A stretch of 64,000 nt of DNA from Malassezia japonica (Eukaryota > Basidiomycota > Malasseziomycetes > Malasseziales > Malasseziaceae). The notes below the pieces were generated by a model. That model was not told the DNA's origin, searched no databases, and was given only the letters and a program-made list of their open reading frames with translations. Below are positions 2,632 to 63,800 of the stretch, one piece after another (within the stretch, counting starts at the first letter, position 1; the number at the start of each line of letters is the position of its first letter). The position numbers were made by a program, and so were the translations under genes. The DNA lies in contig NC_083370.1 in NCBI RefSeq assembly GCF_029542785.1, forward strand, positions 1,488,001 to 1,552,000, in the 5' to 3' direction.

Positions 2632-3159
2632 CTACAACAACAAAGCGCCACCCACCACCGCCACGGCGAGGGCAAAGAGCACCGGCACGGCTTTCTGCGA
2701 GCTCGCGCCGTTCTGCGTGTTGACAGCGACCGTAGTATACTTCTTTCCGTCCGACGATACGACCGTGTTAAACGTCACGGACGTCGGCTGCGGCACCGGC
2801 GTGGTAGGGCCGCTGTAAGGGTTCTGCGCGTAGGCCTGCGAGCCGCCCTGCTGCGCGAGCGAGTCGACGTACGAGCGGCTTGCCGACGCGTCCGTCAGGT
2901 TCGGCACGCTGTGAGATCCCGGCGACGTCACGGGCGAATATTGCGTCTCGGTCTTGAAGGTATTGGAGCCTTTGGTACTGGGTTAGTGTTTCGCGACGTA
3001 CCAGTCACCGTATTGCACACAGCCCGACTGGCCGTTTGCGGACGTCGTCGGCTTCGTCACCGGTGCCATAGAAGACGGCACCGACGACGAGCTCTGCGAC
3101 GCAACCTGCGCAGCAAAGAGGAGCACGAGCGCGGCGAACGTCGCAACGAAACGAACCAT
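2632..3159 (-). CDS. Small secreted GPI-anchored surface protein
   Basis: Two exons (3159-3002 and 2977-2632, intron 2978-3001 of 24 nt) give 167 residues. The N-terminus is a clear signal peptide (MVRFVATFAALVLLF...), followed by a Ser/Thr/Pro-rich segment, a short cysteine-containing patch (GCVQYGDC after splicing), and a C-terminus with a small-residue cleavage region followed by a hydrophobic tail (VPVLFALAVAVVGGALLL). This layout is that of a GPI-anchored wall or membrane protein. I recognise no catalytic domain, so its role is unknown; a lineage-specific cell-surface protein is likely. Divergent from GAD1. Confidence 0.75.
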
Positions 3160-3210
3160 GCTGTGGAGCAAAACGAGTTGCGGGGCACGCGTCGAGCCTT
3201 GGGGCAAGAA

Positions 3211-3224
3211 TCATCACGTGATGA
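3211..3224. promoter_or_regulatory. Palindromic CACGTG element
   Basis: TCATCACGTGATGA is a perfect 14-bp palindrome centred on CACGTG, in the 208-bp divergent promoter of the GPI-protein gene and GAD1. Confidence 0.5.
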
Positions 3225-3367
3225 ACGCTGGGGCGCGTGGCTTTGGTCGGAGGCTCGTGCGCAGATGACGGGCCCGCGCGTGGCGAAATGCACGCAGGCG
3301 AAATTTCGGGCGCATCGGCCCTGGCTGGCGGTGCAGACGGCCCGTTCGTTCTCTCCTACCAGCCGCC

Positions 3368-5053: not shown

Positions 5054-5060
5054 ATAGTTT

Positions 5061-6110: not shown

Positions 6111-6155
6111 AAAGAGGCGGCGCGTGTCTGACTAAACATTCGACGCGTTACGACG

Positions 6156-8616
6156 ATGTGGCCGGAGCGTGCGTCGCAGCGGCGCGCGTACGAGCCCGAG
6201 GACGAGGATCTCGAGGCGCTGCTTGCGGCCGAGGAGGAGATTGCGGGAGAGTGGGCGCCACCGCGCGCGTTCGATGACGAGCCGAGTCACGACCCCCAGG
6301 ACGTGCTGTTCCTGGGGATGGACGAGGACGAAGACGCGCTCGACGCGATGCGCGAAGCCGAGGCCGAGGAGCACACGCCGGTGCACGACGAGGACGTCGA
6401 GATGGCCGAGGCGCCGGCGGCGCCGGCGGCACCGGTCGTGCCGGCCGTGCCTGTAGCGCCCGTGGCGCCACAGGCGGTGCCGTCCACGTCTGCGATACCC
6501 AAATACATTCCTGCCGAGCCGATCCAGGCGGTGACGTCCGACGGGACGCCTATTACCATCTCACGCCGCCGGCGCACGCGCGGATGGAAGGTAGGTCTCT
6601 TTCTAACGCAGCCCCCTGTTGCGCAGCCGACGTCGTCGAGTGAATTCCTCGCCGAGCCACTCCAGCGCCTGATGCAGCGGGCGCGCGAGCCGCTGCCCGA
6701 GCGGCCGCGCATGCGCGCACGCACTGCATCGCCGGTGATGTGGGTCGAAAAGTACCGTCCCCGCAAGTTTACCGAGCTCATCGGCGACGACCGCGTGCAC
6801 CGCGACGCGCTGCGGTGGCTCAAAGAGTGGGACCCCTGTGTCTTTGGCCGCGAGGGCCCTGCAGCGCGGAAGCGCTTCCACGACGACGAGGAGGAGCGTG
6901 CGCCGGATGCGTACAGGCGTCCTCACGAGCGCGTGCTCCTCGTCTCCGGCCCCCCCGGCCTGGGCAAGACGACGCTGGCGCACGTCATTGCTGAGCAGGC
7001 CGGCTACCGAGTCTATGAGCTGAATGCAAGCGATGCGCGCACGGCCGGCGACGTCGAGGCGCGTGTGCGTGTGGCGCTCGAGTCGGATAGTCTGCGTGGC
7101 GCCGGCAAGCCGACGATGGTCGTCATTGACGAGATCGACGGAGCGACCGGCGGCGAAGGCCTCGGCACAGCGAGCTTTATCCGCGCGCTCGTGCGCCTGA
7201 TTGAGCGCGGCAAAGGCGACAGTCGCCGGCACCGCGGCACGGACGTCGGCAAGAAGAAGAAAGCGCCGCCGCCCATCCTGCGGCCGATTGTGTGTGTGTG
7301 CAACGATCTGTACGCGCCTGCGCTGCGTCCGCTGCGCCCGTTTGCGCGGATTCTGCGCTTCCACCGCCCCCCCACGCCTGCGATTGCGCGGCGCCTCTCG
7401 CAGATCTGCGCCGGCGAGGAGCTCAAGGCGGATACACGCAGCCTGTCGCTCCTGTGTGAGCTGACGCACGGCGATATCCGTGCGTGTCTGCACGCGCTCG
7501 AGATGCTGCGCAGCCGCGACGTGGCGGTGAACGACGAGGCGATCACGCAGTCTACGATCGGGATCAAGGACAGCGTCGTGTCGCAGCAGCGGCTCTTTGC
7601 GCAGCTCTTTTGCGCGGTCGACGCAACCACCTCGTCCTTCCACGCGAAGCGCACGCGGCAGGCCAAGGCGACGCTCCACGACCGCGTGCAGGCGCTCGTG
7701 CACGAGATCACGGGCCACGGCGAGTACGACCGCCTGGCGCTGGGGTGCTTTGAGCACTATCCCCACCTCCGCCTCGCCGACCAAGGCTGGCACCGCTACC
7801 GCGACGCGCACGACTGGCTGCACTTTGCGCAGGCCATGACGCAGCGTGCGTACGGCGCGGGCGGCTCGCCGGCCTACGAGCTTTTTGCGTTCCTGCCGTG
7901 GGCGTTTGTCCCGTTCCATCTGCTCTTTGCGAACCTCGCGAATCCGCTGCCCGAGCAGATGCCGCGCACGGACTATGAGAACCACTTGCGGCTTACCGAG
8001 ATGCACGAGCTCGTGGCGACCGTGCGCACGCACCTCCCCCCCGCGAGCCTGCCCTTTTACGGGCGACAGGCGATCGCAACCGAGCTTGGCCCCGCGCTTG
8101 TGCGCATTCTGAGCCCCGACTTGAAACTGGTACGTTGTCCTACTTACGCAGCACACGCAGCAGGCGAGTGCCGCGTCCAAGGGCGAGCTGAGTGCGCTCG
8201 TGGATACCATGCTTTCTCTGTCGTTGTCCTTTGCGCCCGACCGCACTGAGGACGGCGCGGTGGTGCAGCGGCTGCAGCCTGTCCTCGACGCGTTTGGCGC
8301 GTTTGGCGACGAGATCAAGTGCGACGTCGGTCCCCAGCGCCACGGCGTGCGTCAGCAGGTGCAGCGCGAGGTCGAGCGCGAGGCCGCGCGCCGCCGCCCG
8401 GTGGTTGAGCATGCGTCTCGGTACGACGTCGCGCCGGTCAAGGAGCACACCAAGCAGAGCCTCGTGACGCTCGACTTTTTCGGGCGCCCCGTCGCGGCGC
8501 CTGCGCCGCCGACCCCCGCCAAGGTCGAGCGCAAGGAGCTGCGTGTCTTTTACCGGTACCACGAAGGGTACTCGAATGCGGTCCGCAAAGCGATCAAGCT
8601 GTCTGCACTGCTGTAG
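6156..8616 (+). CDS. CTF18: Ctf18, large subunit of alternative RFC clamp loader
   Basis: Three exons (introns 6591-6611, 21 nt; 8130-8151, 22 nt) encode 805 residues. The AAA+ ATPase core has the RFC-like opening VMWVEKYRPRKFTELIGDD, Walker A SGPPGLGKTTLAH near residue 256, Walker B VVIDEIDGA, and a large-subunit lid region. The acidic N-terminal 180 residues and the C-terminal tail (HEGYSNAVRKAIKLSALL) match the Ctf18 pattern. The Ctf18-RFC complex loads PCNA and supports sister-chromatid cohesion. The first intron is a multiple of three and has no stop, so an unspliced transcript would add seven residues. Stop codon is 12 bp from the SNU114 stop. Confidence 0.93.
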
Positions 8617-8628
8617 TCTATATAGGTA

Positions 8629-11603: not shown

Positions 11604-13438
11604 ATGGCGGAGAGTGGGGTGAGCGTGGCGCGGGAGCGCGGCGCGCGCTGGCTCCGGTTTGGGACGCTGACGCTGGGCCTGGCGGGCTCGCAGATCATAT
11701 GGAGCTTGGAGCTGGCGTAGGTATTTTTTTTTCTGACGAAGCTATGGGACGCCGTACCTGCTGGACATTGGCCTGTCGAAGCAGGCAACCGGCCTCGTGT
11801 GGATCGCCGGGCCGCTGTCGGGCCTTGTGACGCAGCCGGTGCTGGGCTCGCTGTCGGATTCGTCGACGTCGCGGTACCGCCGGCGCAAGTACATTGTCGG
11901 CTCGGCGCTGATGGTGGCAGTGGGGACGTGCACGATTGCGTTTAGCGAGCCGATTGCTGCCGTGCTCCTCGACTCGCTCGGCGTGGGCTACGGCGACTGG
12001 GACCCGGTGCGGAAAGAGCGCGTGGCGCTGGTTGTGCAGACGTTGAGCGTGCTCGGCTTCTGGGTGCTCGACTTTGCGGTGAACGGCCTGCAAGTCATTT
12101 CGCGCGCGCTGATCCTCGACAATGCGGGCAGCAGCGAGCAGAACGAGGCGAATGCGTGGCAGGCACGTATGCTGCATGCCGGCAACATTGTCGGCTACTG
12201 GTGCGGGTGGGCGAACCTCGCCGAGTGGCCTGCGCTCCGCTGGGTCGGCGGCGGCCAGTTCCGCAAGTTTGCCATGCTCTCGATCGCGGGTATGGCCGCG
12301 TGCGTCGCGGTGACGGTGCTCGGTACGCCCGAGACGGCGTACCGCCACACGACGCCGCCGCCGACGCGCGGCTGGCAGCGCGTATACGTGTCGCTGCAGC
12401 AGGTGTGGCACGTCGCCAAGCAGCTGCCGCTGTCGATCCGGCGCGTGTGCCAAGTCCAGCTTTTGGTACGTAACGGTGCTGACACAGGCGACGATGAGCT
12501 GGTTTCCGTTTCTCTTTTACAGCACGACCTACATTGTGGACGCCGCGCGGCGGCACCACGACGGGCGAGATGCGAGCGAAAAGATCGGCAGCTTTGGCAT
12601 GCTCCTCTTTGCGCTCCTCTCGATGCTTGCCGGCTCGTTTCTGCCGGTCGTTACGGTCGCGGGGCACGCTTCGCCCCATGCGGATGGCGGCGCGGTCGCC
12701 CCCCTCCGCTCTGCCTGGCGCCAGGCGACGCTCCGCTCAATGTGGACGTTTGGGTGCCTGAGCCAGGCGCTGATCCTCTTTGCGACGTTCTTTGTGCACA
12801 CCCAGGAGCAGGCACTGGGCTTGGTGATGCTGATGGGCGTGCCTTGGAGCATCTGGACGTGGGTCCCCTTTGCGCTCCTCGGCGAGTTTGTGCGCGAGGC
12901 CGAGGCCGAGCCGGCGCAGGACGCGGTCGAAGACCAGTGGTCCGCGCAGCAGATCATGGACCGCCACGAGCCGCGGCAGCGCACCTCGGTGCACGACCTC
13001 GAGAATCCGAGCCGCCGCACGAGCGCGCACGAAGGTGTGGCGCCGCAGCGCATCGTCTCGGGCTCGCACGTCTCGTCGGTCGTCTCGCGCGGGCGCGAGG
13101 TGCCTGCCGACGGCGCCGCGCCGCTCGAGGACAGTATCCGAGGCGGCACGATCCTCGGCATTCATAACCTCGCGATCGTCCTGCCGCAGTTTCTGGTGGC
13201 GCTCATTGCGTCGCTCATCTTTCGCGTGACGAGCCACGCCCCGAGCAAGCACCGCCGTGGCGACGACGGCGACGTCGCGTGGGTGCTGCGTTTTGGCGCG
13301 GTAATGGCGCTCTTTGCCGCGGCACTCACGCGGTACATCCCCCTCACGCAGTCCGAGCGTGCCGCACGCAACATTGCCGGCGTGCGCCTCCCCCTCGACG
13401 ACGACGAGGAGCCCGAGGCGGCGCACGATACGCCGTAG
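11604..13438 (+). CDS. Sucrose/SLC45-type MFS (GPH family) transporter
   Basis: Three exons (introns 11717-11741, 25 nt; 12466-12487, 22 nt) give 595 residues with about 12 hydrophobic segments. The loop-2 region LGxS...WIAGPLSGLVTQPVLG followed by SLSDSSTSRYRRRKYIV is the hallmark of plant SUT, animal SLC45 and fungal Sut1-type glycoside-proton symporters. A long hydrophilic central loop, rich in arginine and acidic residues, sits before the last membrane segments. Substrate is likely sucrose, maltose or a related glucoside by family; this cannot be fixed from sequence. The first intron has an AAG acceptor and a T-run, unlike most others here. Confidence 0.85.
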
Positions 13439-17702: not shown

Positions 17703-19271
17703 TTAGGCAATGTAGGTCGAAGCCGAGACGTTGCCGCCGCGGCCGGTCCAGTTGATGTGAATGTCCTCGCCCTTCTTCAAGTGGTCGTTCTCCTTGCCCG
17801 GCATCACACGGAAGGTGTGGGCGCCAAAGTAGTCGCGCTGGGCCTGGAGCAGGTTCGCCGAGCCGGTCGCGAGGCGGTAGCCGTCGAAGAACGCGAGCGC
17901 GGACGAGAAGGCAGGCGTGGGGACACCCCACAGGACGCCCTGCGCAATGATGCGGCGCCAGCCGTCCTCGGCCTTCTGGATGGCGTTGGCAAAGAAGTCG
18001 TCAAAGAGCAGGTTCTCCAGCGTCGGGTTCTTGCGGAAGGCGTTGGTGATGTCCTTGAGGAAGACGGAGCGGATGATGCAGCCGCCGCGCCACATCAGAG
18101 CGATCGAGGGGTTGTTCAGCGTCCAGTTGTACTCCTTGGCAGCCTCGCGCATGAGCATAAAGCCCTGGGCGTACGAGACGATCTTGGAAGCGTACAGCGC
18201 CTGCTCGAGGTCGTCGATGAACTGCTTCTTGTCGCCATCGAACGGCTTGATCTTGGGGCCGCTGAGGACCTTGGAGGCACGCTCACGCTCCTCCTTGAGC
18301 GCCGACAGGCAGCGGGCAAAGACCGCCTCGCCGATCAGCGTCACGGGCTGGCCGAGGTCCAGCGCGTTGATCGCGGTCCACTTGCCGGTGCCCTTCTGGC
18401 CCGCGCTGTCGAGGATCTTGGGCACCATCGGCTGGCCGTCGGTGTCGTTGTACGCGAGCACATCGCGCGTGATCTCGATCAGGAACGAGTCGAGCACGCC
18501 CTTGTTCCACTGGCCAAAGATCTCCGAGATCTCCTTCTCCTCAAGGCCGAGACCGAGCTTGAGGATCGAGTAGGCCTCGGCAATGAGCTGCATGTCGCCG
18601 TACTCGATACCGTTGTGGACCATCTTGACGTAGTGGCCCGCACCGCCATCGCCGACCCAGTCGCAGCACGGCTCGCCGTCGCTCTGTGCGGCGGTCTTCT
18701 GGAAGATCTCCTTGATCTCGGGCCAGGCGGCAGCGCTGCCACCGGGCATCAGCGAGGGGCCGTGGCGCGCACCCTCCTCGCCACCGGACACACCGGAGCC
18801 GACAAAGAGCAGGCCCTTCTCCTCGAGCTCCTTCGTGCGGCGGTTCGAGTCGGGGAAGTGCGAGTTGCCACCATCGATGATGATGTCACCCTTCTCAAGC
18901 AGGGGGATGAGCTGGTCGATGAACGAGTCGACCGCGGGGCCGGCCTTGACCAGGAGGATGATCTTGCGGGGGCGCTTGAGCAGCGACACAAACTCCTGGA
19001 GCGAGTGCGCACCGACCACCTTGGTGCCCTTGGCCTCGTTCTCAAGGAAGTTGTCCACCTTGGAGGTCGTACGGTTGTACGCAGCGACCGTGAAGCCCTT
19101 GTCTACATCAGCCAGTGCACGTACCGTTCATGTTGAGAATCAGGTTCTGGCCCATGACAGCCAGGCCTGCGTTAGCACTCCCTCTACACGAAACATACCG
19201 ATCAGGCCGATATCAGCACTGTATTAGCAAAGTCCTCTCTCCAAGAATACATACACAGCTTGCGTCGTCAT
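17703..19271 (-). CDS. GND1: 6-phosphogluconate dehydrogenase, decarboxylating
   Basis: Four exons (introns 19219-19254 of 36 nt, 19167-19198 of 32 nt, 19103-19124 of 22 nt) give 492 residues starting MTTQAVADIGLIGLAVMGQN. It oxidises 6-phosphogluconate to ribulose-5-phosphate with NADPH production in the pentose phosphate pathway. The NADP fold (GLAVMGQNLILNMNDKGF), catalytic motifs GVSGGEEGARHGPSLMPGG and VKMVHNGIEYGDMQLI, and the C-terminal ending NWTGRGGNVSASTYIA are present. The first three coding exons are only 17, 20 and 42 nt. The two upstream introns are the longest in the window. The region upstream contains a CACGTG box at 19337. Confidence 0.96.
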
Positions 19272-20618: not shown

Positions 20619-23600
20619 ATGCTCCACCGCCGACGGAAGCTGAGCAATGCGTCGGGGAGCCCAGCTGCCCTGGAGCTCACTGAATGGAGTCAGCGCAGTG
20701 CACCAGAGACTGCGGGCGCGCGTCGCTCGTCCAAGCGGCGCATGGCCCCTGCATGGCGCCGCTGGGCGGACGCTGCAGAACGCATCGAGCAGCGCGTACG
20801 CGCCTCGCTCACACGCAGGTTTGCACACCACGGGAGATGGATCTCGCGGCACCAGACACGCACGCTGCTCCTGTGCAACCTGGTCATTGCATCGCTCTTT
20901 TACCCCGCAGTCGTCATGTACCTCTTGACGACGTCCGAGTCGGCGGCGCTTGGGCCGTCGTCGCATACGTGCGTCGAGCGCCACCGTGTACTCGCAGAAC
21001 AGCCCGCGGCATGCGTGGGGGGGGCGCTCGCGCCGACCAACATCTGGGACGTGGCGCTCGTGTCCCTGTCGGATATCCTGGGGGGCGGCCGGGTGCAGCG
21101 CAGCGACACGAGCTATGCGGTGCACGATCTGCGCCTCCTCTGGGACGAGACGCCGTCCCTGGAGGTCGTGCCGTACCCCGAGGACAGAGCGGACGCGCCG
21201 ACCGTGCACATGGCCCAGGTCCTTGTCACCGCCAAGGCCGTCCAGCAGGGCGGTGGCTCGCCGTACGGCATGCTCGAACCACACGCGCTGCTGGCCGCAC
21301 AGCGTATGCAGGACGCGCTGGAGCGCCGCCTCGCACTGAGCGAGATTAGCTGCGTCGAGTCGGACGGGCAGTGCCTCGTTCTGTCGCCCCTCGACTACTG
21401 GCACAGGAGCGCCGAGGCGGTGCATGCGGACTGGCATCCTGCCAAGTCGTACTCTGGGAGCCCGGTGCGTGCGGTGGTCACGCCGCCTGTCGCGCCGTTG
21501 GTCGCAAACAGCACGATGCCGCTGCTGTACTCGACGACACTCGCGAGCCGCTGGCCGTACCTCCCCCTCTTTTCGCGCGCCGAGTACCTCGTGCTGACCT
21601 TTTTCCTGCACGACTCGCCGGACATCTGGACGCACTGGCGCGCGATTGTCGAGGCGACCGCCGCCGAGACCGACCAGGCGACGCTGTCTGTGCCGACGCA
21701 CGTCGGGCCGGGCGAGACGTTTCTTCGCGTACGTTCTTCTTTTTCTGACCCAGTTTAAGCCACAGTCTCTCACCGCGCGGCCGACGCTCAACATCTCGGT
21801 CGTCGCCGGGGGCTACATGATCCTCCTGTCGTTCATTTTTCGCGGGCTCGTGCAGATGCGCCGCCTGCACTCGCGCTTCGGTATTGCCTTTACTGGGTCG
21901 GTGCAGCTGGTGCTCGACTTGATCATGAGTCTGAGCGTGTGTGCTCTGCTCGGCATCCGCCTCACGGCTGTCCCCTGGTCGATTTTGCCGTTTATTATTG
22001 TCGTCGTGGGGTCCGAGTCGATGCTGTTCATGATCCGCACGATTACCAACACGCCCGTCTCGCTCACGATGCACGCCCGCATTGCGTATGGCCTGTCGCA
22101 GGTCGCCGGGCCCATCACCCTTACCGCGCTGTCGGACATTGTGCTGCTGATCCTCCTTGCGTCGACGATCCGCGTCCCTGCCGTGTTGCAGTTCTGTCTC
22201 TTTACGATCTGCACGCTCGTCGTCGACTACTTTATGCAAATGACCTTTTTCCTGACGGTCCTGAGCATCGACATGCAGCGCCTCGAGCTCGCCGAGGTCC
22301 TCCTGCAAGGCGCCAGCGCTGCGTCTGCGCCGCAGACGCAGATGGTCGATGCACAGCCGCCCCACGAGCCGTACCGCCCGCGCTCGGCGGTCGGCCTGCT
22401 CATGTCGGGCGGACGCGCGCTGTGGCGGACGCGCTCTGTGCGCTCGCTGCGCTTCTCGATCGTGGCGACGGTCGTGCTCACGACCGTCTTTTACTTTGCC
22501 GCGGACGGCACCGCCCGGGCCTACCTCGCCTCGCTCCTCTTTGCGCCCTTCGGTATGACGGCGGATACGGAGAAGGGCGACGTGGCCGATGCTCTTCAAG
22601 GGAGCGCGTACGGCGCGCTGTGGGCCGCCATCAATCCCGAGAAAGCATCGATCGTGCGCATGGTCGTCGAGCCGTGGGCGCTTGTCGTCTTGCGCGACAA
22701 GTCGCTCTCGGGGAACGGCCACACACCGCCGGGCCCATGGCTCGAGCAGCTCTTCTTCCACCGGCGCGGCGCGACGCTCTTTCTCGTGTTCTTGTTTGTC
22801 GTGTGCCCCATCGCAGGCACGATGCTCATCATGTCCGTCGTGCTGCGCTACCTGCGCAAGGACGCCGACCTCCTCGAGACGCAACAGGATAAGTCGGATG
22901 GCGCGGACGCGGGGCTGCAGAGCCTCTTGCAGCCGGGTCGCCCACGCGCAGCGTCCGAGGCGCATGGCGCGCTGCGTGTGCACGTCGAGGCGCTCACCGA
23001 CGAGCTGCACCCTGCTCCGCTGCATGCGATCTGCGCCGACGGCACATGGGTCGCGAGCGCGGACGTGTGCAACACGCTGCGCACCGCGCACGGCCCCCGC
23101 GCATCGCTCGCGGCACTCGCGGCGCTGCGCACCGACGCGGGTGCCGCGCCGGACGGCTCTCGCATCCTGACCATGGCCCTTGCCGCGTCCGGCGACCGCG
23201 CGCTCCTTGCGCTCGGCCAGGCGTCTGGGCGCGTATCGGTCGTGGCGCTCCCCGGTCTGCAGCTGCTGATGGACGCGACCGAGAGCGAGAGCCCGCTGGC
23301 GCCGGTCCAAAACGTGTCGTTCCGCAACGAGACGCTCGTCACCTTCCACCGCGACGGCCGCCTGCTTGCGTGGCGAGGCATCCCCCCGATCCCAGACGAG
23401 GATACGAGCTGGACGCGCCCGGCGGCAATTGCGAGTGCGTACGCGCTTGCGCCGCCGCTGCCGACCTCTGCCTGGACGTACATCACGGTCGAGGCCGCGG
23501 CCGACGTGTGTGGCGTCGTCTCTGCGAAAGGGCAGCTTGTCCTCTTCTCCGTCGCGCCGTCCAAGCAAGCCACCGATACCCTAGCGGCCGACCCCCTGCG

Positions 23601-41490: not shown

Positions 41491-41873
41491 CTAGTCGTGC
41501 TTGCGCGGCGCCATCGCGACACGGTTGCCGTTGGCACGGAACGCCGCGCGCCACTGCTCGTCCTGGAGGAGCGACGACTCGGTACGCAGCACCGAGCCGA
41601 TGGACATGAAGAAGCCGAACGTCGCACCGGACGACAGCATATACTGCGACAGCGTCGCGAGCGCGCCACGGGGGCCGGGGCCGGCACTGCGTTAGGACGA
41701 CCACGTACCGCAGGATCTGGAAGCCACCGCCGATGAAGCCAATCGTCAGGCCGACGAGCGAGCCCATCATGGCGCCCATGCCGACTGCGTTAGAACATGT
41801 ACATACGCTTCGAGAGGAGCGTCGGCTCAGCCGGCACCTGCTGCACATACACTTGCTGCTGGGGAGCACTCAT
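41491..41873 (-). CDS. MGR2: Mgr2/Romo1-family TIM23 component
   Basis: Three short exons (introns 41785-41806 and 41687-41708, both 22 nt) give 112 residues. The protein has two hydrophobic helices with glycine packing motifs (VGMGAMMGSLVGLTIGFIGG, then LSQYMLSSGATFGFFMSIGS), the hallmark of Mgr2/ROMO1, which gates lateral release from the TIM23 inner-membrane translocase. The N-terminal exon is Gln/Val/Pro-rich. Without splicing the frame stops after 27 residues, so the gene is easily missed. Divergent from the macrodomain gene with 62 bp between starts. Confidence 0.92.
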
Positions 41874-41935: not shown

Positions 41936-42657
41936 ATGACGCTCCGTGCGCTGCCGTACGCCAACGCCCTAGCGCAGAAAGTCGCGCTCTGGAAGGGGTA
42001 GGTCGAGAGACTGACGCAGCGACATTACCAAGCGTACGTGTGCGCACTGACGCAGTCGACGTCGACGCGATCGTCAACGCTGCAAACTCGTCGCTGCTCG
42101 GTGGCGGAGGAGGTACGTGGCACGGCTTACGCAGTCGACGGCGCGATCCACCGCGCTGCGAACGACCCCCGCTTCCTCGAAGAGTGCCGCAAGCACAACG
42201 TATGTCTAGAAGCTCACACAGGGGTGTGCGACGGGAGAGGCCAAGCGGACCAACGCGTACAATTTGCCGTGCAAGGCCGTGATTCACACAGTGGGGTACG
42301 TCGCACGACTAACGCAGCCCCATCTGTACGTCGCCGTGCTCAGCTCACCAGACTCTCAGCAGGCCGCGGGAGAATCACGCGCGCTGCTCCAGGCCGCGTA
42401 CCGCAATTCGCTGCAGGCCGCCACCGACGCGGGCCTGCGCAGCATTGTACGTCGCGCGTCTCACGCAGGCGTTCCCTTCGATCTCGACCGGCGTGTACGG
42501 CTACCCCATTCGGGACGCGACCGACGCCGCGCTCGAGCAGGTCAAGGCGTTCCTCGCGGGCCCGAGCGGCAGCAAGCTCGACCTCGTCGTCTTTTGCTGT
42601 TTCTCGCAGTCCGACCTGCAGGTCTACGAGGAGCGCGCGCCTACATACTTTTCCTAG
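41936..42657 (+). CDS. Macrodomain ADP-ribose/O-acetyl-ADP-ribose hydrolase
   Basis: Eight exons give 187 residues. Introns: 41998-42019, 42034-42055, 42113-42134, 42200-42221, 42296-42317 (22 nt each), 42326-42351 (26 nt), 42447-42468 (22 nt). Spliced, the protein reads GDITKLDVDAIVNAANSSLL, then GGGGVDGAIHRAA, CATGEAKRTNAYNLPCK, HTVGPIY, and AFPSISTGVYGYP, an intact MacroD-type domain with the catalytic asparagine and VDGAIH loop. Such enzymes remove mono-ADP-ribose from acidic residues or hydrolyse O-acetyl-ADP-ribose. Unspliced, no frame covers more than a fragment. The last 17 coding bases overlap the end of COG6 on the other strand. Confidence 0.93.
42318..42325 (+). other. 8-nt microexon of macrodomain gene
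   Basis: CCCCATCT sits between a 22-nt and a 26-nt intron and supplies the Pro-Ile of the conserved HTVGPIY segment. Exon 2 of the same gene (42020-42033) is 14 nt. Confidence 0.8.
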
Positions 42658-47800: not shown

Positions 47801-50468
47801 GCACGCGCTGATCAGGAGCGCGTCGACGTACGCGGCGAGCGGCTGGAGGCCCGGCTCGCCCGACGCCATGCACGGGTCCTCGACGAGCGCCGTGATGATG
47901 CGCACGCACCGCCGCCCGATCTCGAGCTGCTCGCGCGGCGCGGCGTACGTCCAGTGCTGGTACTCGGGCCAGATCGCGTCGGCGATCCACTGCACGGTGC
48001 GCACGAGCACCTGGCTCTTGATCGCGAGGAGCTCGGTGGCGTCGGCGTACACGGCCGTCTGCAGCTCGTGCACGAGGCCCCCGACGAGGTCCAGGAGCGC
48101 AATCGTGCCCGGGAAGCGGCCGCGCTGCACCTCGTCGGCGAGCAGCACGGAAAATGTCTCGCGGTCCGCGCTGCGCAGCGACGCGTACGACGCAAGGAGG
48201 GGAATCGTGCCGGGCGAGCCGATGAGCACGTTGGACGAGCGCACGCGCTGCCACACCTCGTTGGGCTGCAGGGGAAGCAGGACCTGCAGCAGGCGGTACG
48301 CCGCACAGATCATCGCCGACGGGAGCGGGCGCAGCGGCAGCGCGATGCGCAGCATGTCGAGCGCGATGGCCACGAGGCCGCCGCCGCCGTCGAGGTGCTC
48401 GAGCAGCGCCGCGGCAAGGCCTTCGTCCGCGCCGAGCACCGCCGCAAACGCGTCTGCAATCTCGGCAACCACCTCCCAGTCGCCCGGCACGCAGTCAGGC
48501 GAGAGAAAGTCGACGCGCGGCGCCGGCGCGCTGTGCCACAGGTCCTCGTCCGAGACGCGGGGCGGCGTCGGCGACACGTACAGCGCGAGGACGTCGCGCA
48601 AAATGCGCCACGCACTCGCGGGCTCGGCCAGCTGCCACAGGACGACCTGCGGCGTGCTGCCGAGCGGCGAGATGAGCGTGCCTTTGGTGCCGACCGGGAG
48701 CTCGATGCTCGTCGCCGGCACGGCCATGGCGCGGCGCACGCGGTACTGCACCGTACCTGCGCCCGGTGCGTCCACGAGCTCGTACGGCGCGAGGCCCGCC
48801 GGGCCGCCGGGGAGGATCAGCGCGAGGGTCGGGAGCTGCGCGAGGTAGTCGAGCGCCGCGGCGCTTGCCTCGGCCGCAGCGCTGCCTGGCTGGGGCGTGT
48901 GGAACACGTCGAGTGCCGCGTTGCCGCTGAGCGCATGTGCGAGGCGCACGAGCGGGCGCAGGCTCGCGGGGAAGCGCCGCCGCGCGGTCGTGAGCACGCT
49001 CGCACGCGTCGGATGCGGCATGTCGGCCGTCCAGAACTGGAAGCAGAGCGACGCGACGCCCTCGGCCGCGTCCTGCGCGAGCCCGTCGCGCGATGCGCCA
49101 AACGTCGCCGCGTACAGGCCGACGAGTGCGTCGAGATCTGGGATGTACTCTGGCTGCACGATCTCGGTGAGCGAGAGGAGCAGGCCTTTGAACACGGCGC
49201 GGTACGCGAGCGCAGAGAGGTTCGACGCGCCGAGCACCGCGCTCTCGGCGCCGCCGAGGAGCGGCGACGCAAGCAGCGCGTTCAGCACGCCAAAGAGGTC
49301 CATCGACGGGTCCATCGCACCGTGGGCCATGCGGCGCCATATGGGCGGCCCGTTGTCGTGGACCGCCGTGGCGTTTTGGAGGCGCGGGTTTTCGGCGGTC
49401 TCGAGGTACTCTTCGAGGCGGCGCAGGAGGAGTGCCCAGCCGAGGAGCAGCGGCGAGTAGCACACGAGTGCGCCTGCGCCGTCGAGGATCTCGAGCACGC
49501 CCTCGAGGCCGTCGGGGTCCGCGAGGAGCGGCGCGAGGGCCGCGTCCGACTCGCCGCCGAGCGGGTCGAGCGCCGCCTCGAGGCTCAGGCACTCGACCGC
49601 GAGAAAGAGGAGGAGGTGCGCGACGCAGTCGACGAGCACCGACGACGGCCCGTCGAGAAAGCCGCTGTTGGCCTGGTTCTGTCCAAAGTGTGTGCGCTTC
49701 GCCGCGCTGAGCGTCGCATTCATAAAGGCGCACGTCGGCTGCAGGCGCCCGTAGTACATGAGGAACACGACCTCGAGGAGCGCGAGCTGCTTGCAGAGCC
49801 CCTGCTTGGCCCACAAGAGCGAGTAGCGTGCATCGTTGCGGACGTGCACCGGGAGTGCGCGCTGTGCCTCGTCCTCGAACCACGCGAGGACCTGCGTGGC
49901 AAACGCCGCGTCGCAGAACTTGTCGAGCACGGCTACGGCCATGGCGTACAGCTCGTTCTGCGCGTCCTCCGAGATGCGGAGCAGCGCCGCGATGCAGCGC
50001 ACGACCGCGAGCTGCTCCTCAAAGTAAAAGACGGTGAATGCATCGAGAAACTCGGTGAATGCGTCGCTGCTTTTCGGCGCCAGCGCGTCGAGCAGGCGGT
50101 GCTCACTCTCGAGAAAGGTGCGCAGGAGCGCGAGTGCCTCGAGCTCGTCGACGTCGAATCGCTCGCTGATCGCGACACACAGCTCGCGGTGCACGTCGCT
50201 GATTGACACACGCACGCCGCGCACCTCGGCGCTCTCCTTGTCGAGCGCTGCGCGCGACGCTGCCGAGCGCGGGGGCAGCGGCGCGCCGCACGCCTGGAGG
50301 CGGCCGAGGCGCGCGTCGAGCAGCTGCCCGAGCTCCTCCGGCGCGCGCGTCTGGCGCGCACGCTCGAGGTGCTCATATAGGTCGTGGAACGATCTGTGTG
50401 AGCCGCAACACCTACAGAAACGCGGGAGCATCCCCCGGCGCAGGCACCGCGCCTGACCGCTGCTCCAT
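44849..50468 (-). CDS. NUP192: Inner-ring nucleoporin Nup192 (Nup205)
   Basis: Two exons (intron 50394-50415, 22 nt, GTAGGT donor) give 1865 residues starting MEQRSGAVPAPGDAPAFL followed by SFHDLYEHLERA. It is a huge, almost purely alpha-helical solenoid with the Nup192/205 N-terminal motifs (LLWAKQGLCKQLALLEVVFL, then YYGRLQPTC and NANSGFL-like QANSGFLDG). Nup192 bridges Nup93/Nic96 and the channel nucleoporins in the inner ring. An in-frame ATG at 50431 lies partly in the intron and is rejected. It stands in a same-strand run of three genes (arrestin, NUP192, COG6) with gaps of 38 and 36 bp. Confidence 0.88.
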
Positions 50469-50506: not shown

Positions 50507-52200
50507 CTACCGCGGGGGACGCCCGGCGGGCGCCGTGGCAAAGTAAAAGGAGGGAGGGTCGCTGGCTTCTGCCGGGGTCGCGGGGTAGCTCTCGGAGAGC
50601 GCGCGTGTGTAGACAAAGTCGGTAGCTGGGGGGAGAGGCGTGTGGACGACGTCCATCGGCGGAAGGAGCGCGTGCACCGGCGGCTGGCTCTGGGCCGACT
50701 CGTAGCTCGGCAGCGACACCCACTCGAGCGAGGTATGCGAGTGCGTGAGTGTGATCGGCACGCCAATCACGATATCGACGACGCGGCGGCGACTCTCGCT
50801 CTCGGAGGGTGCCATCGGCACGGACCCCGGCGCGGTGGGCGTGGGCGCGTCGCCGCGCTCCACGCGGATCGTGATCTTGAGCAGGTGCGACACGGTAATG
50901 TTGGACTTGGGGTGCTGGCACGAGATGTTGACCTTCTTTTGCTGTGCCATGCTCACGCACAGGTCCATCGCGAGCTCCCACGGGCCGTTGGGGTCGAGCG
51001 GCGCGACGCGGATCGCGTCGGCCTGCGCCACGTTCTGCGCCGCGGCCGCGTCAATGTATGGCAGCAGCGGCGAGGCCGCGAGGGGGTCCGCGTCGTCTGA
51101 TAGGATAGGAAGGAGTGGCTTGCCCGCGTCGCCCGCGAGGCGCAGCATCGTCCACTTGCGGGGGACTTCGCGCCGCATCGTCCGCCGCTCGTTCGCATAG
51201 TAGTCGGTTTGCTCCTCGAGCGCGACCGTGATGCGGTGGACCCTGATTTTGCCGATCGGCACCATCTTGAGCGACACGGGGATATGTGTGCCGATCGGAA
51301 AGCTGCGGCCACTGATGGCCAGCATGTAGGACAGCATGTCTTCACACGTCCGCGACACGACAATCGAGTCCGCGGCACACGACGAGTCCGCATCGGGCAT
51401 CTGCACGAGCGTCACCTCTTGCTGGGTCGTGAGGTTCGCAGCGAGGGGGCCGCTGCGGTACACGGTCGCCTTGAGCATGTACTCGAGATGCCCAAAGTCG
51501 GCGTGCAGCGTCGCGGGCAGGTCGACCGGCAGCGACATGCTAAACGGGTACTCGTACAGCCCTTTGCGCAGCTCGAACCACTCGGCCGCGGCCGGCGCGC
51601 CACCGGGCGGCGGCGGCGGCGGCGGCGGCGGCGCGTCCGCGCCGGGCAGCGGAGGGAGGCGCAGGCCATCCAACAGCCCTTTGAGCGGCTGCTTGCGCCG
51701 CGGGCCGGACTGCGCGAGCGCCGCGTGAACGTCGTGGCTGCGCTCGCGCCCGATATCGTCGAGGCGCGTAAGCACTGCGCCTTTTCCGGGCACACTCGGC
51801 GGCAGCGGCGCGGGCGGGGGGCGCGTCGTCTCTGGAACGCGCCCCAGCGCAATCGGCATGCCGGTATTCGATCGGAAGATGGACGTCTTGAGGCGCAGAA
51901 TCGGCACCTGCTCGGCCATCTCGATGCGGTTCTGCCCGATACCTTCGGGCCAGTCGGTGCGCCCCACGCCGGTAAGCGAGAGCATTATATCCTTGACGCG
52001 CGTCGCCTTGGGCAGCGACAGGACGACTTTGCCTCGCAGCTGCGGCGGTGGCGCATCCGTGTCCTCGGTGATGGGCGGGCCGCCCTCTGCGTGAGCCACT
52101 ACACATACCTTGAGGCGGCGTCCCGGTCAGGAACACGACGGGCTCCGATACTGCGTTAGTTCGTCAACATACACTCGATTTGCAGCGTCGGTCCTACCAT
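50507..52200 (-). CDS. Second alpha-arrestin (Rog3/Rod1-like)
   Basis: Three exons (introns 52151-52172 and 52088-52109, both 22 nt, GTATGT donors) give 549 residues beginning MVGPTLQIELSEPVVFLTG. The arrestin N domain includes LRGKVVLSLPKATRVKDIML and FELRKGLYEYPFSMSLPVDL; the C domain includes GRSFPIGTHIPVSLKMVPIG. After it comes SLPSYESAQ, the LPSY form of a PY motif used by fungal arrestins to recruit Rsp5-type ligases. A nine-proline run is encoded by a CGG repeat. Likely a transporter-endocytosis adaptor. Confidence 0.87.
51608..51631. repeat. CGG trinucleotide repeat
   Basis: Eight perfect CGG units inside the second arrestin gene, encoding polyproline on the minus strand. Confidence 0.9.
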
Positions 52201-52283: not shown

Positions 52284-52299
52284 CCACTACGCCTCCACC

Positions 52300-53392
52300 A
52301 TGTCGCTGGCCAAAGGCGCTGCTCTGCCGCCGCTGCTCCTCTCGCCGAAGCAGCTCTCGGGTCTGCTCGGCGCCGCGCGCCCGATCCGTCTCTTGGATGC
52401 GACCTGGTTCCTGCAGATGCCGGGCCAGCCCGTGCGCAACGCGCACGCCGAGTTCCTCACCGGACCCCGCATTCCCGGCGCGCTCTTTTGGGACGTCGAC
52501 AAGGTCGCGACGGTCGGCGCGGCAGTGCACAACATGCCGCACATGATGCCTACCGGCCCTGTGTTTGCCGAGGCCGCACGTACGTAGCACCGCTCACGCA
52601 GGCGCACTCGGAATCGCCAGGGATACGCACGTCGTCGTCTATGTACGTTGCATGACTCACACAGGACACGCATGGGTACGTCGTGCGTCTGACGCAGCAT
52701 CTTTTCGTCGCCGCGCACTGCGTTCACGTTCTCGGTACGTGGCCTGGCTCACGCAGGCGTTCGGACATGAAGCCGTCTCGGTGCTCGACGGCGGCCTCCC
52801 GGCATGGGCCGACGCGGGCTTTCCGCTCGACACACAGGCACTGACCAGCGACCCGGCCGTGCAGGCGTCCGAGTACGCCACGCCGACGCTCCGCGAGGGA
52901 TGGGTGCGCTCGTTCGAGGAGATACTCGCCAATACGAGCATGGGTCCCCGCGCACAGACCGTGCTCGACGCACGTCCCAAGGCGCGCTTTGACGGCCACG
53001 GGCCGGAGCCGCGCCCGGGCCTCGCGTCGGGGCACATTCCGGGTGCGCGCTCGCTGCCGTTCTCGAGCGTGCTCGACACGCACACGACGACCGACAAGCA
53101 GATCCCCGAGAGGACGTTTACGACGCTCAAGCCGCAGCACGAGCTGTGGAAGCTCGTCAACGCGGCCGTCGGCGGCGAGGACGGCATCGAGAAGCTGCGC
53201 CACGACAGCAGCGCGCGTGGCTCGCTCGGCGTGTCGCTGTCGTGCGGCAGCGGCATGACTGCGAGCGTGCTGTGGCTCGTGCTGCAGCAGCTCGGTGTCG
53301 ACGCTGCTGTGTATGACGAGAGCTGGCTGGGCTGGGGCCGCCGTGGCGCGCAGGGCGAGGCGCCTGTCGAGGTGTCGCCCAAGGACGAGTAA
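52300..53392 (+). CDS. TUM1: 3-mercaptopyruvate/thiosulfate sulfurtransferase
   Basis: Five exons (introns 52580-52601, 52643-52664, 52676-52697, 52735-52756, all exactly 22 nt) give 334 residues with two rhodanese domains. The N-terminal inactive domain has IRLLDATWFLQMP and RIPGALFWDVDKVA; the C-terminal domain has VLDARPKARFDGHGPEPRPG and the catalytic loop LSCGSGMTASV with Cys286, of the mercaptopyruvate type. Tum1 passes sulfur to Uba4/Urm1 for tRNA thiolation and is a likely source of H2S. Exon 3 is only 11 nt. Start at 52300 fits family length. Confidence 0.95.
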
Positions 53393-53557: not shown

Positions 53558-54211
53558 TTATGCTACGAGTGCATAGTCGTACGTGACGCCCTCTGCGGTT
53601 AGTCACACCACGTACTTAGTGTGCCACCCGCGAGCGCGCGGCGCACATTGTTGGCAAACGCCGCGCGGTCGCGGCGCAGATCCTCGGCGGCCTCCTTGTT
53701 CAGCGGGTCGTCGGGATTAGGGTCGAGAAACAGGAACTGCAGGCCGACGAGCACCGAGTTGAGGTTCAGGATCGGGTTCCACTCCTCGCGCAGAATGTTT
53801 AAGCACACGTTCCCCTCCAGGTCGAGGTTCGGGTGGTAGAGCTGCGTGAGCAAGTGCAGCGTACCTTTTGCACGCACTTCACCTTGGGCGGGTCGTGGGG
53901 ATAGTTGTTGTTGATCGCAATCGTAAACCTGAATGCACCCCCTTTGTACATGCCTGCGTCAGACTCGCTACCTACCCTCGTCCGGCGTGATGGTCAGCGT
54001 AAAGTTCATCGTATCGGAAGGGTTCGGAAACTGGGTCTGCATCGTGCTCGGCAGCTCGAGCTCCGTGAGGTCTGCGTCAGCCGCGCCACGCACCCTTCTG
54101 CACACGCAGCTGCGCAGGCGAGGTCTTTGGCCGCTGCTTCTTCGCCTCGTCCGCCTCTTTCTTCTGGCTCCAGAGCTGGGTGAGTGCGCACGCGCCACGT
54201 ACGTTGATCAT
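53558..54211 (-). CDS. UBC12: NEDD8-conjugating enzyme Ubc12
   Basis: Six exons (introns 54176-54202 27 nt, 54072-54093 22 nt, 53954-53975 22 nt, 53842-53864 23 nt, 53593-53615 23 nt) give 178 residues. The protein reads [26 protein letters not shown]-like [27 protein letters not shown], and [18 protein letters not shown] with active Cys105. The N-terminal extension, which docks on the NEDD8 E1, is present, and the C-terminus ([15 protein letters not shown]) diverges. It loads Rub1/NEDD8 onto cullins. Exon 1 codes for only three residues (MIN). Divergent from MAP2 with 40 bp between start codons. Confidence 0.94.
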
Positions 54212-55607: not shown

Positions 55608-55617
55608 AGCAGATAGA

Positions 55618-56583
55618 CTATACGGACGCCGCATGGCGCACACTCTTCACCACTGCGCGCGTCGCAAAGAGCACGGCAAGCAGCGTCATGAGCAGCACCG
55701 CAGGGTATAGCGCCGCATTTCCGATCGGAACCTCGGCGCTCGTCGGCTCGTCGGTGTACGATGCAGCGATCGGCGTGTACAGCGGCGAGGTCTGCGTCGC
55801 GAGCGCACCGTTGAGCTCGGCGAGCAGGTGGGCGTGCTCGCCATGGAGCAGCTGCGCGGGGGCTGCACACGTCAGTAAGGTTTACGTACCCGTCTCCTCC
55901 CAGATCATCGGGTCCGGCGGCTCGCTGCACGACGCAAACACGACCGGGCCCGCATTATTCGCGAGCAGCGGCACATGCTCGTACTGTGTATGCGTCCAGC
56001 GCGCAAGGTAGGAGTCAGTAAACTGCTGCCAGCGGTGCTGTGCGTGGGCCAATGCGTGCGTCGCACGGCCCCAAGCGCTGCCGTCGTGCGCCGCCGGGGG
56101 GTCGGCAGGCAGCACGTCGGCGTCGCGTGCCTGCGCCGCGTGGTAGCGCACATGTAGCGGCACGTTTAGGTGCACATCCAGCTCCGCGGTGTTCGTAGCG
56201 GGGTCGAGCTCGAGGAGTAGCGCCGTGTGCTCGCACGCTTTGCCGTGGCACGACTCGAGGCGCGCCGCGGGGGGCGCGAGATCGGGGTCCTGGAAGTCGT
56301 TGCGCTCCCACCACGTACGCCGTACCTCGTCCTCGTATGCGCCTTCACCCGCCCAGCCCACCGCCTTTTCCAGCTCGAGGTGGCCGAGGAACTGGGCGTC
56401 GCTCACCGCTTCCGAGCGCTCGATGCGCGCAGTGAAGGGATCATAGAGCAGTGCGGGCGGTAGCGGGATCAGTGTAAAGACGGTGCACTTAGTCTGGCGA
56501 GCAATCTCCGCTGGAATGTCGACGCTGAGCTGCGGCGCGTACGAGCGCCGCTGCAGGAACCCAAACCGCGCACGATGGTCCAT
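55618..56583 (-). CDS. PIG-X/Pbn1-like GPI mannosyltransferase I subunit
   Basis: Two exons (intron 55863-55889, 27 nt) give 312 residues. The family-typical luminal beta-rich region (QLSVDIPAEIARQTKCTVF, then LPPALLYDPFTARIERSE) and the repeated LDVHLNVPLHVRYH motif, followed by one C-terminal membrane helix (ALYPAVLLMTLLAVLFATRA), match PIG-X, the stabilising partner of the PIG-M/Gpi14 mannosyltransferase in the ER. No signal peptide is seen at the start (MDHRARFGFLQRR), so an upstream exon or poor conservation is possible. The longer frame starts with GTG and is rejected. Confidence 0.82.
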
Positions 56584-56593
56584 GGTGGGGAAA

Positions 56594-56613
56594 CGCACGT
56601 GGCGCCACGTGCG
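56594..56613. promoter_or_regulatory. 20-bp perfect palindrome with two CACGTG boxes
   Basis: CGCACGTGGCGCCACGTGCG is its own reverse complement and holds CACGTG at 56596-56601 and 56606-56611. It occupies almost half of the 47 bp between the PIG-X and PFK2/FBPase2 start codons. Confidence 0.65.
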
Positions 56614-56630
56614 ACGCTCAAGCCACGACC

Positions 56631-60780: not shown

Positions 60781-60802
60781 GGCACGGTCGCCACGTTGCC
60801 GG

Positions 60803-60808
60803 CACGTG
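60803..60808. promoter_or_regulatory. CACGTG box in divergent promoter
   Basis: CACGTG between TCD1 (start 60780) and RPA190 (start 60873), next to an AT-rich ATAAAATTTTT stretch that could serve as a TATA-like element. Confidence 0.45.
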
Positions 60809-60872
60809 ATACATAAAATTTTTCGGGCGCACGGCGCTTCCTCTGAGCGTCGGACGATCGCGAGGGGGAGCG

Positions 60873-63800
60873 ATGGACATTACGCGTGCGATCACGTCGC
60901 ATGTCAAGTCGGCGTCCTTCTCGTTCCTGACGGCCGAGGAGGTGCGCAGCATCTCTGTGCGGCAGATTGTGAACCCTGTTCTGCTGGACAATGCGAATGC
61001 GCCGACGGAAGGCGGCCTGTACGACCCGGCGCTCGGCCCGATGCGGCTCGACGATATCTGCCGGACGTGCCACATGAACCATTTCGAGTGCCCGGGGCAC
61101 TTTGGGCACATGGAGCTGCCCTCGCCCGTGTTCCACCCGCTGTTTATGAACCACGCCTACTCGCTGCTGCGCGGGACGTGCGTCTTCTGCCACCACTTTA
61201 AGATCTCCAAGGTGGCGATGGCCAAGTACACGGCGCAGTTCCAGCTGCTCGAGTACGGCCTCGTGGACGAGGCCCAGCTGATTGCCGCCGAGCAGCTGCG
61301 CCGCCCGCTGGCCGACCTCGAGGAGGAGGACGAGGAGGAGGACAGCAAGCGCTCGCGCGCCAAGATTGAAACTGTCGAGGAGTTTGTGCAGCGCATCAAC
61401 GACGCCACGCGCAAGTACATCAAAAAGGCCGTGCAGGCCGGCGCTTCCAAGGGCGCCACGCACGGCTCGGCAGAGTACGCGGCCCGCCGCGACCTGCGTA
61501 ACGTGTTCCTCAAAGATATCCTGCGCCGCCGCTGCGAGCGCTGCCTAGCGTACGTATCTCTACTTACCCAGCATGAATCCTACCCTGCGCAAGGACGGCT
61601 TTGTAAAGATCACCGAGCGTGTGCTCTCGGCGCGCGACGCGGCGATCCACGAGGCGCGTGGCATCCGCCGTGACAATGTGCTGCTCGACCGCGGCGTGCC
61701 TATGTCGGGCGAGACGGACGGAACGACGGTCGTCGACAGTGCCGATGCGGAAACGCCGAGCACCATGTCGATGAAGGAGGCGCGCAAGCTGAGCAAGGAC
61801 GCCGCCGACACGACGCGCGTCGTGCCTGCGAGCGAGTGCCGTGCGAACCTGCGCCGCCTCTTTGCGAACGAGGCCGAGATCTGTGCGCTGATCTTTGGTC
61901 GCCATCCGATGTTTGCCAACGGCGGCTCGGCGCCGAGCGCCGACGTCTTTTTCATCGAAGTGATCTGTGTCACGCCGACGCGCTTCCGCCCGGCGAGCGT
62001 GATGGGCGACCAGACCTTTGAGAATGCGCAGAACGAGCTGCTGACCAAGATTCTGAACACCGCCTTTACGGTGCGCGACCGCAACGCACAGGCGCAGGCG
62101 TTCCAGAAGAAGAGCAACTACCCCCTGCTCGACGGCGTAAGCGAAGAGCAGGCCAAGACGCTGCAGCAGCAGTGGGAGCAGGACCGCCGCATGGCGATGG
62201 ACCAGCTCCTCGGTGCGATGATGGAACTCCAGGTGAGCGTGAACTGCTACATCGACTCGTCCAAGAACCCTGCGCCGATGCGCCAGGGCCAGGCGCCGCC
62301 GCCGGGTGTGAAGCAGGGCCTCGAGAAGAAGGAGGGCCTTTTCCGCAAGCACATGATGGGCAAGCGTGTCAACTTTGCCGCGCGCTCGGTCATCTCGCCG
62401 GACGTCAACATTGAGACGAACGAGATCGGCGTGCCGCCCGTCTTTGCCAAGCGCCTGACGTACCCCGAGCCGGTGACGGTGCACAACTACGAGCTGATGC
62501 GCCAGCTCGTGATCAACGGGCCGGATACCTACCCCGGTGCGCACGCCGTGCGGGCCGAAGACGGCACCGAGACCCTGCTCAAGCACCTCTCGGTCGAAGA
62601 GCGCACGGCGTTGGCGAACCAGCTGCTCACGCCCCAGGGCCAAACGTCGCGCCAGGCGCTCGGCACGTTTGGCGGCGTTGGCGGTAACCTGCGCACGCCG
62701 GTGGCCAACAAGCAGGTGCTGCGCCACCTGCGCACCGGCGACATCCTGGTGATGAACCGCCAGCCGACGCTGCACAAGCCGTCCATGATGGCGCACAAGG
62801 CGCGTGTTCTCCAGGGCGAGCGCACGATCCGCATGCACTACGCGAACTGCAACTCGTACAACGCCGACTTTGACGGTGACGAGATGAACATGCACTTTCC
62901 CCAGAGCCAGATGGCGCGTGCCGAGTGCTACAACATTGCCAACACGGACAACCAGTACCTGGTCCCGACTAGCGGTAACCCGCTGCGTGGTCTAATCCAG
63001 GACCACGTCGTGGCGGGCGTCTGGATGACGTGCAAAAACACGCTGTACACGCGCGAGGAATACAACCAGTTCCTCTTTGGCGCGCTGCGTCCGGAGAACT
63101 ACGGCGCGGGTGGCCGCATCCTCACCGTTCCGCCGGCGATCGTCAAGCCCGTGCGCCGGTGGACGGGTAAGCAGGTCATTTCCACGATCCTGCTCAACGT
63201 CAAGCCGGCCAACGCCGTCGGCCTCTACCTGCAGTCCAAGGCCAAGGTCGCAGGCCGCTTCTGGGGGCCTGGCCACAAGGAGGAGGAGACAGTGGTCATT
63301 GACGACGGCGAGATGCTGACCGGTGTGCTGGACAAGTCGCAGGTCGGTGCATCCGCCTACGGTCTCGTGCACGCCGTGCACGAAATCTACGGCCCGGAGA
63401 GCGCAGGACGCCTGCTGAGTATCCTTTCGCGCCTGTTTACCATGTGGCTGCAGCACAACGCCTTTTCGTGTCGTATGGACGATCTCTTGCTCAGCACAGA
63501 GGGCGACGCGACGCGCCAGTCGCTGCTGAGCGAAGGCGCGACGCACGGCTTGGACGCGGCGATGCACAACGTCGGCCTCGACGGCAAGAACGCCACGGAC
63601 CCCGATGTGAACTACAATTTGCGCCGCCGCCTCGAAGAGGTGCTGCGCGACGATACCAAGCTTGCGTCGCTCGATGCCGAGATGATGTCTGCATCCAACA
63701 AGCTGACGTCGTCCGTCATTAACGCGTGTATTCCCGGCGGTCTCTTGCGCAAGTTCCCCGAGAACAACATGCAGATGATGACCGTGTCGGGTGCCAAGGG

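Follow-up and report, generated by a model that had tools for sequence, protein, structure and literature searches.

Introns of the skin yeast Malassezia japonica number in the thousands and mostly share a single length of 22 nucleotides (nt), and this length mode rests on a hard floor that is located in the spacer between the donor and the branch site. The analysis centres on a 64,000-nt stretch, C1:1488001-1552000 (the window), of the 8.43-Mb, nine-contig genome, where an earlier reading of the letters (the original prediction) had placed 40 introns in 18 genes. Our explanation, which we consider very probably correct, is that these are ordinary U2-type spliceosomal introns shrunk to the minimum that the M. 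japonica spliceosome can remove. When the 40 introns were re-derived, the predicted table of lengths was obtained identically (29 of 22 nt; two each of 23, 25 and 27 nt; one each of 21, 24, 26, 32 and 36 nt), and all 18 spliced open reading frames (ORFs) are open across every intron. All 40 have GT-AG ends, and 39 carry a CTNAY branch motif, which lies 2 nt before the AG in 36 of them and 1, 3 and 6 nt before it in the remaining three. On both strands of the window, the looser site pattern (donor GTRNG, branch CTNAY, then AG) occurs 28 times at length 22 and never in the reversed sequence, which was used as the control for motif counts.

The exact length is a genome-wide property, as the original prediction expected. 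A strict motif, GTACGT-N7-CTNACNCAG for 22 nt with other lengths obtained by varying N, has 922 + 862 = 1784 matches in the genome, compared with none in the control and approximately 0.2 expected from base composition. With N0-6 there are five matches of 17-20 nt and none of 21 nt (control, 3), while N0-30 (15-45 nt) yields 2233 matches (control, 16). Because 444 of these 2233 are 23-45 nt long, a tail of 20%, the word 'quantised' is better replaced by a description in which a mode at 22 nt stands on a hard floor and is followed by a tail. Extending the motif to N31-61 (46-76 nt) gives 110 matches (control, 9). At least 12 of the 23 sites shown in letters (100 were listed) are, by eye, two 22-23-nt introns separated by a micro-exon, so that a reading as long introns was rejected for a good part of these matches at least.

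A 264-kb training set, comprising the window plus 200 kb from contigs C2 and C5, contains 62 copies of the strict 22-nt motif and 94 of the looser one, for which the sampled sites were required to match GTRNGY at the donor. Extrapolation from this set puts the genome total of 22-nt introns at roughly 2700. Among the 94 sampled sites the donor is GTACGT in 69, GTAGGT in nine, GTATGT in seven, GTGCGT in six, GTACGC in two and GTAAGT in one. Counts in the 264 kb over branch-AG gaps of 0-8 nt locate the floor: donor-branch spacers of 7 nt occur 115 times versus three in the reversed control, whereas spacers of 0-6 nt pooled occur 37 times in each. Likewise, a branch-AG gap of 2 nt is found 189 times versus 41 in the control, with other gaps near control values.

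The mode also emerges when length is left free. A length-blind gene finder, trained on the 264 kb by hard expectation-maximisation (EM) with lengths of 10-200 nt uniform and GT..AG as the sole starting constraint, called 177 introns, of which 85 are 22 nt long; the runner-up is 25 nt, with ten. It learned GTACGT and CTNACNCAG unaided. When GT/AG was replaced by each of five decoy dinucleotide pairs, only one to five introns of 22 nt were returned. The AC/CT decoy returned 37 pieces, each 13 nt long, consistent with the interior of the same introns, from the AC of the donor to the CT of the branch site.

Splicing is supported by the behaviour of the coding frame. A codon model trained solely on uninterrupted ORFs was used to compare the coding frame on either side of each site, with counts covering testable places. 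Of 94 sites, 53 were testable, and 47 of these shift by the class expected for removal of 22 nt, six by the other class, and none is unshifted. In contrast, most control places are unshifted: 575 of 654 for GT-N18-AG lacking the motif (971 further places untestable), 30 of 30 for GTACG-N15-AG lacking the branch motif (33 untestable) and 3710 of 4112 for random places (4888 untestable). Within -75 to +90 nt around the intron, a stop is present in 28 of 67 sites if the intron is retained versus nine of 67 if it is spliced. The latter result, and the fact that 22 is of the form 3n+1, would also fit a length held at 22 nt by frame quality control, in which a retained 3n+1 intron leads to a stop and to nonsense-mediated decay, and the available part of a ciliate study ties 3n introns to selection (PMC5014332). 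However, such control predicts no edge in the donor-branch spacer, where no excess is seen below 7 nt, and 3n+2 lengths of 20 or 23 nt would be equally suitable. Relatives also appear to favour the 3n lengths 21 and 24 nt, in a comparison whose detection is biased towards 3n. We regard frame quality control as an improbable cause of the 22-nt length, and it may operate in addition to the floor.

Homology across the junctions, together with the genome-wide counts and the frame shift, upholds the spliceosomal-intron reading. Solved structures are matched across junctions by the spliced UBC12, 6-phosphogluconate dehydrogenase (6PGDH) and macrodomain proteins. UBC12, with five introns on the minus strand, aligns over residues 1-172 to human UBC12 (2nvu) without gaps at the first four junctions, and the UBC12 proteins of fungal relatives are gap-free at the fifth. 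The introns are 54176-54202 (27 nt, following a first exon of 9 nt), 54072-54093 and 53954-53975 (22 nt each), 53842-53864 (23 nt) and 53593-53615 (23 nt). The first four are supported by the structure alignment, relatives' proteins and the spliced ORF, and the last by relatives' proteins and the spliced ORF. Across 94% of its length, the spliced product matches a deposited M. japonica UBC12 with 100% identity. The deposited protein ends in LSTWCD, as if the last 23-nt intron had been kept (53558-53615), whereas relatives share the GVTYD end that splicing produces. For COPzeta, a spliced model from which three 22-nt introns were removed agrees at 100% across 201 residues with the deposited M. 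japonica protein; the public annotation therefore already contains 22-nt introns. These two matches identify the species as M. japonica.

The 6PGDH gene (minus strand) has three introns within its first 80 coding bases, at 19219-19254 (36 nt), 19167-19198 (32 nt) and 19103-19124 (22 nt). All three are supported by structure alignment and the spliced ORF, and the 36-nt intron also by a second gene-finder run on the window, with lengths of 14-80 nt and fixed site models. The alignment to yeast 2p4q starts at residue 7 and spans two of the three junctions, while that to mammalian chains starts at residue 4 and spans the first junction too. The macrodomain gene has seven introns and an 8-nt exon. 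Over residues 10-187 its spliced protein can be aligned to MACROD2 (4iqy) with single-residue gaps, all away from the junctions, and the HTVGPIY motif is restored only after intron removal. In TUM1, MGR2 and COG6, Pfam finds the rhodanese, Romo1 and COG6 domains after splicing, and GNAT and hydrolase domains were likewise placed in spliced window products.

A different account would be that the stretches are not removed at all, but are coding insertions, assembly frame errors or recoding sites. Removal is supported here by proxies rather than RNA, and some deposited or predicted proteins of relatives do read through such stretches. However, 47 of the 53 testable sites require a frame change of the 22-nt class, HTVGPIY is restored solely by removal, and 1784 copies of the motif stand against none in the control. 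In addition, two M. sympodialis proteins, the COPzeta P0124 and the RHEB P0153, are without stretches that are kept in near-identical predictions. We consider it extremely unlikely that the stretches remain in the message.

If the introns are minimal, their layout suggests how the minimum may be set. The commonest arrangement is GTACGT (6 nt), a 7-nt spacer, CTNAC (5 nt) and NCAG (4 nt), which places the branch adenosine 16 nt past the first G and 5 nt ahead of the last G. With only 7 nt between donor and branch and 2 nt between branch and AG, a polypyrimidine tract cannot fit, and donor and branch site would therefore have to be recognised jointly across the intron. The floor would then be set by the closest approach of the donor-bound and branch-bound parts of the machinery, and deletion pressure would have driven most introns onto it. 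This model of deletion against a functional minimum is adopted from work on mikrocytids (the portion of PMC10245619 available to us). On this basis, 22 bases is apparently the shortest functional intron in M. japonica. The window contains micro-exons of 8, 11 and 14 nt, and spacings of 3 and 7 nt occur at C1:403157-403232 by motif only; exons this small fit recognition of introns rather than of exons. At that site three 22-nt intron motifs follow one another, and the 3-nt gap between two of them is a possible 3-nt exon.

Genes for the U2 and U6 small nuclear RNAs (snRNAs) were found, with canonical GUAGUA and ACAGAGA boxes respectively, from which catalysis looks standard. The GTACGT donor departs at position +4 from the best fit to the usual U1 end. 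Matches of ATACGTACCT, a possible altered U1 5' end for GTACGT, may instead be donors on the opposite strand.

Several observations weigh against our explanation. No U1 snRNA match was obtained in the genome with Rfam RF00003, and the canonical U1 5' end ATACTTACCT is absent among the 57 genome matches of ATACNTACCT, so donor recognition is left unexplained. The idea that the short branch-to-AG distance allowed the step-two factor Prp18 to be lost was rejected, since a Prp18 gene is present. In the frame test, 41 of the 94 intron sites were untestable, and six of the 53 testable ones show the other frame shift, which is unexplained but would result from a miscalled frame or from another intron close by. 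The length-blind run also returned seven of 177 introns below 22 nt and 31 above 40 nt, and many of these calls are probably false. The human chain 2nvu is one residue short at the fifth UBC12 junction. Finally, for the RNA level we infer removal by the spliceosome through the proxies of frame and homology. The Prp18 gene itself, at C4:773657-773987, appears as two matches approximately 70 nt apart, and is probably interrupted.

Relatives of M. japonica were compared through their protein sets, with intron lengths taken from retained introns back-translated in predicted proteins, and fits are given as (donor-branch spacer, branch-AG gap). The deposited UBC12 of M. obtusa (P0008), compared without its N-terminal stretch, carries, at four of the sites where M. 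japonica has introns, insertions that measure 8, 7, 7 and 7 residues. These back-translate to the splice motif at 24, 21, 21 and 21 nt, as (9,2) or (7,4) for the first and (6,2) for each of the others. The COPzeta prediction P0131 is otherwise identical to P0124 at 184 of 189 aligned residues and carries three 8-residue insertions that P0124 lacks; the older-looking M. sympodialis RHEB model P0175 and another COPzeta, P0128, have one insertion each. For all five of these insertions, only (8,3), or 24 nt, fits among the gaps tested. P0127, which is close to M. japonica, reads YVAKLTQ before a frame shift and fits 22 nt (7,2). Random peptides fit matching splice motifs at rates of 0 to 0.0006.

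These findings suggest that the introns are mostly kept at M. japonica sites in the proteins of relatives, at other lengths. The floor appears to be species-dependent, with a spacer of 6 nt in M. obtusa, 7 nt in M. japonica and 8 nt, together with a gap one longer, in M. sympodialis; each species' machinery seems to have a floor of its own that can change. The broader proposal, that every Malassezia species has its own spliceosome-set quantum at ancestral positions, such as about 21 nt (6,2) in M. obtusa, 22 nt (7,2) in M. japonica and 24 nt (8,3) in M. sympodialis, is in our view about evenly balanced. Its difficulties are that P0130 fits 25 nt (7,5) and P0006 fits 36 nt (18,5), neither of them a quantum, that the lengths come from 12 introns in three genes, and that in-frame insertions are visible only when they are 3n long and free of stops. 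This visibility bias does not explain why the gap is 3 in all five insertions of P0131, P0175 and P0128, when 2 is the rule in M. japonica.

The shared sites also bear on whether the introns derive from a 22-nt mobile or copied unit (an introner) that spread across the genome. Uniform length and motif would be expected of such a unit. Moreover, 44 spacer pairs among the 94 sites are alike at 6-7 of 7 positions, whereas 50 shuffles averaged 22 such pairs and never exceeded 36; this modest excess may reflect base composition. However, the 94 introns all differ from one another, and in three genes the sites are common to M. obtusa and M. sympodialis at other lengths, so those introns predate the length. 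We consider an introner origin very unlikely.

If the proposal of species-specific quanta is true, the minimum intron would be a fast-evolving trait of the splicing apparatus, with thousands of introns re-tuned at once, and Malassezia would form a natural series for finding the component that sets it. The question of what limits how small a spliced intron can become is open, and it has arisen mostly in systems that are difficult to culture or engineer, such as nucleomorphs, ciliates and parasites. A culturable yeast with thousands of introns at the floor, and with sister floors seemingly 1-2 nt apart, makes the question testable, and opens a route through comparison of splicing proteins and snRNAs between species. 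A more immediate consequence is that Malassezia gene models are damaged, in that deposited or predicted proteins read through introns of 21, 23 and 24 nt. In other models, conserved residues are missing in a way that suggests the annotation of introns longer than the real ones. For example, the deposited M. furfur UBC12 (P0002) and RHEB-like protein (P0165) lack 6 and 14 conserved residues, respectively, immediately ahead of intron sites, as would happen if introns had been lengthened artificially to satisfy a length limit.

Ultrashort uniform introns are already known in several eukaryotes, and M. japonica adds a yeast case: as in that class, most of its introns have one length below 30 nt and the lower limit is sharp. 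The parallels drawn originally, to nucleomorphs and ciliates, were correct but incomplete, as mikrocytids and Encephalitozoon belong beside them. The following comparisons draw on the available parts of the cited papers. Mikrocytid introns are 16-17 nt long, and the authors of that work had already proposed deletion bias against a functional minimum (PMC10245619). Mikrocytos mackini resembles M. japonica in having many introns near one length with conserved motifs; however, it is a parasite with a reduced spliceosome in which all introns are 16-17 nt (PMC10245619), whereas M. japonica is a yeast with Prp18, U2 and U6, a 22-nt mode and a 20% tail of strict-motif matches. Stentor coeruleus likewise has a fixed length and a branch adenosine at a fixed position, but its introns are 15-16 nt, AU-rich and without a strong branch consensus, and the table in the accessible portion of that paper has no Slu7 or Prp18 (PMC9505925), the latter being present in M. 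japonica. Nucleomorph introns, mostly 18-20 bp (cited in PMC5014332), are similarly narrow near a minimum, although a nucleomorph is a relic nucleus, unlike the 8.43-Mb fungal nuclear genome studied here.

Encephalitozoon cuniculi, which is of fungal kin, shares the 22-nt minimum and the strict donor and branch motifs, but has 37 introns in total, of 22-76 nt (PMC3629993), compared with the extrapolated approximately 2700 of 22 nt in M. japonica. Yarrowia lipolytica, Trichomonas vaginalis and Giardia have a fixed branch-to-AG distance and no polypyrimidine tract, as does M. japonica (PMC2483917), where in contrast to these three the donor-branch distance is fixed too. Yarrowia introns are far longer, at 204 and 268.75, apparently the median and mean (PMC2483917). 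Within the genus, introns have been termed 'very short' (PMC7426719), with mean and median lengths of 37.2 and 30 nt in M. restricta and 68.1 and 40 in M. arunalokei (PMC9241646) and a mean of 79 in M. globosa (PMC4634964), and the M. restricta annotation used a final minimum intron of 15 (PMC6473144). A full-text literature search, covering partial texts and not extending to two M. sympodialis genome papers, found no fixed length, mode, floor or rigid layout described for Malassezia.

The 40-intron set was assembled from the gene-finder runs, the motif list and manual work on the macrodomain gene. The run with lengths of 14-80 nt recovered 36 of the 40, and the four that it missed all lie in the macrodomain gene. 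Ten extra calls in the window, at 2632, 24153, 24691, 30541, 42204, 42224, 42501, 42597, 44838 and 50471, were discarded as probably wrong; the stretch 30541-30617, for instance, is coding, and the acetyltransferase ORF is open without its removal.

The macrodomain gene lies on the plus strand, and each of its introns and micro-exons is supported by structure alignment and the spliced ORF. The EM gene finder also placed the 22-nt introns at 41998-42019 (with Pfam support), 42034-42055 and 42113-42134, the first two of which enclose a 14-nt micro-exon at 42020-42033. The four missed introns were taken from the motif list (42200-42221, 22 nt) or placed manually (42296-42317, 22 nt; 42326-42351, 26 nt; 42447-42468, 22 nt), as was the 8-nt micro-exon at 42318-42325 that restores HTVGPIY. 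This micro-exon and one of 11 nt at 52665-52675 are required for the macrodomain and rhodanese reading frames, respectively. The latter belongs to the TUM1-like rhodanese gene (plus strand), which has 22-nt introns at 52580-52601, 52643-52664, 52676-52697 and 52735-52756. These features are supported by the EM gene finder, Pfam and the spliced ORF, as are further 22-nt introns in the genes for an alpha/beta hydrolase (29752-29773 and 30301-30322, plus strand), a GNAT acetyltransferase (30906-30927, minus), MGR2/Romo1 (41687-41708 and 41785-41806, minus) and COG6 (42959-42980, 43077-43098 and 44441-44462, minus).

The remaining introns were mostly placed by the EM gene finder and the spliced ORF. 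On the plus strand these are 8130-8151, 12466-12487 and 61550-61571 (22 nt each) and 11717-11741 and 21729-21753 (25 nt each). On the minus strand they are 35297-35318, with ATAAC in place of CTNAY, 40034-40055, 52087-52108 and 52151-52172 (22 nt each), and 55863-55889 (27 nt). A 24-nt intron in a gene for a small secreted-type protein (2978-3001, minus) is supported by the motif, the EM gene finder and an open spliced ORF, and a 22-nt intron at 50394-50415 (minus) by the 14-80 run and the spliced ORF. The putative intron at 6591-6611 (plus), placed by motif only, does have the predicted length of 21 nt, but its status as an intron is doubtful because 21 is divisible by three, inspection shows no stop in frame, and the five strict matches shorter than 22 nt in the genome include none of 21 nt.

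Outside the window, a 500-bp stretch of 21% GC amid 65% GC was noticed at C2:139701 (L005:9701-10000 into L006), resembling the AT-rich core centromeres described for Malassezia in the available part of PMC7025860.

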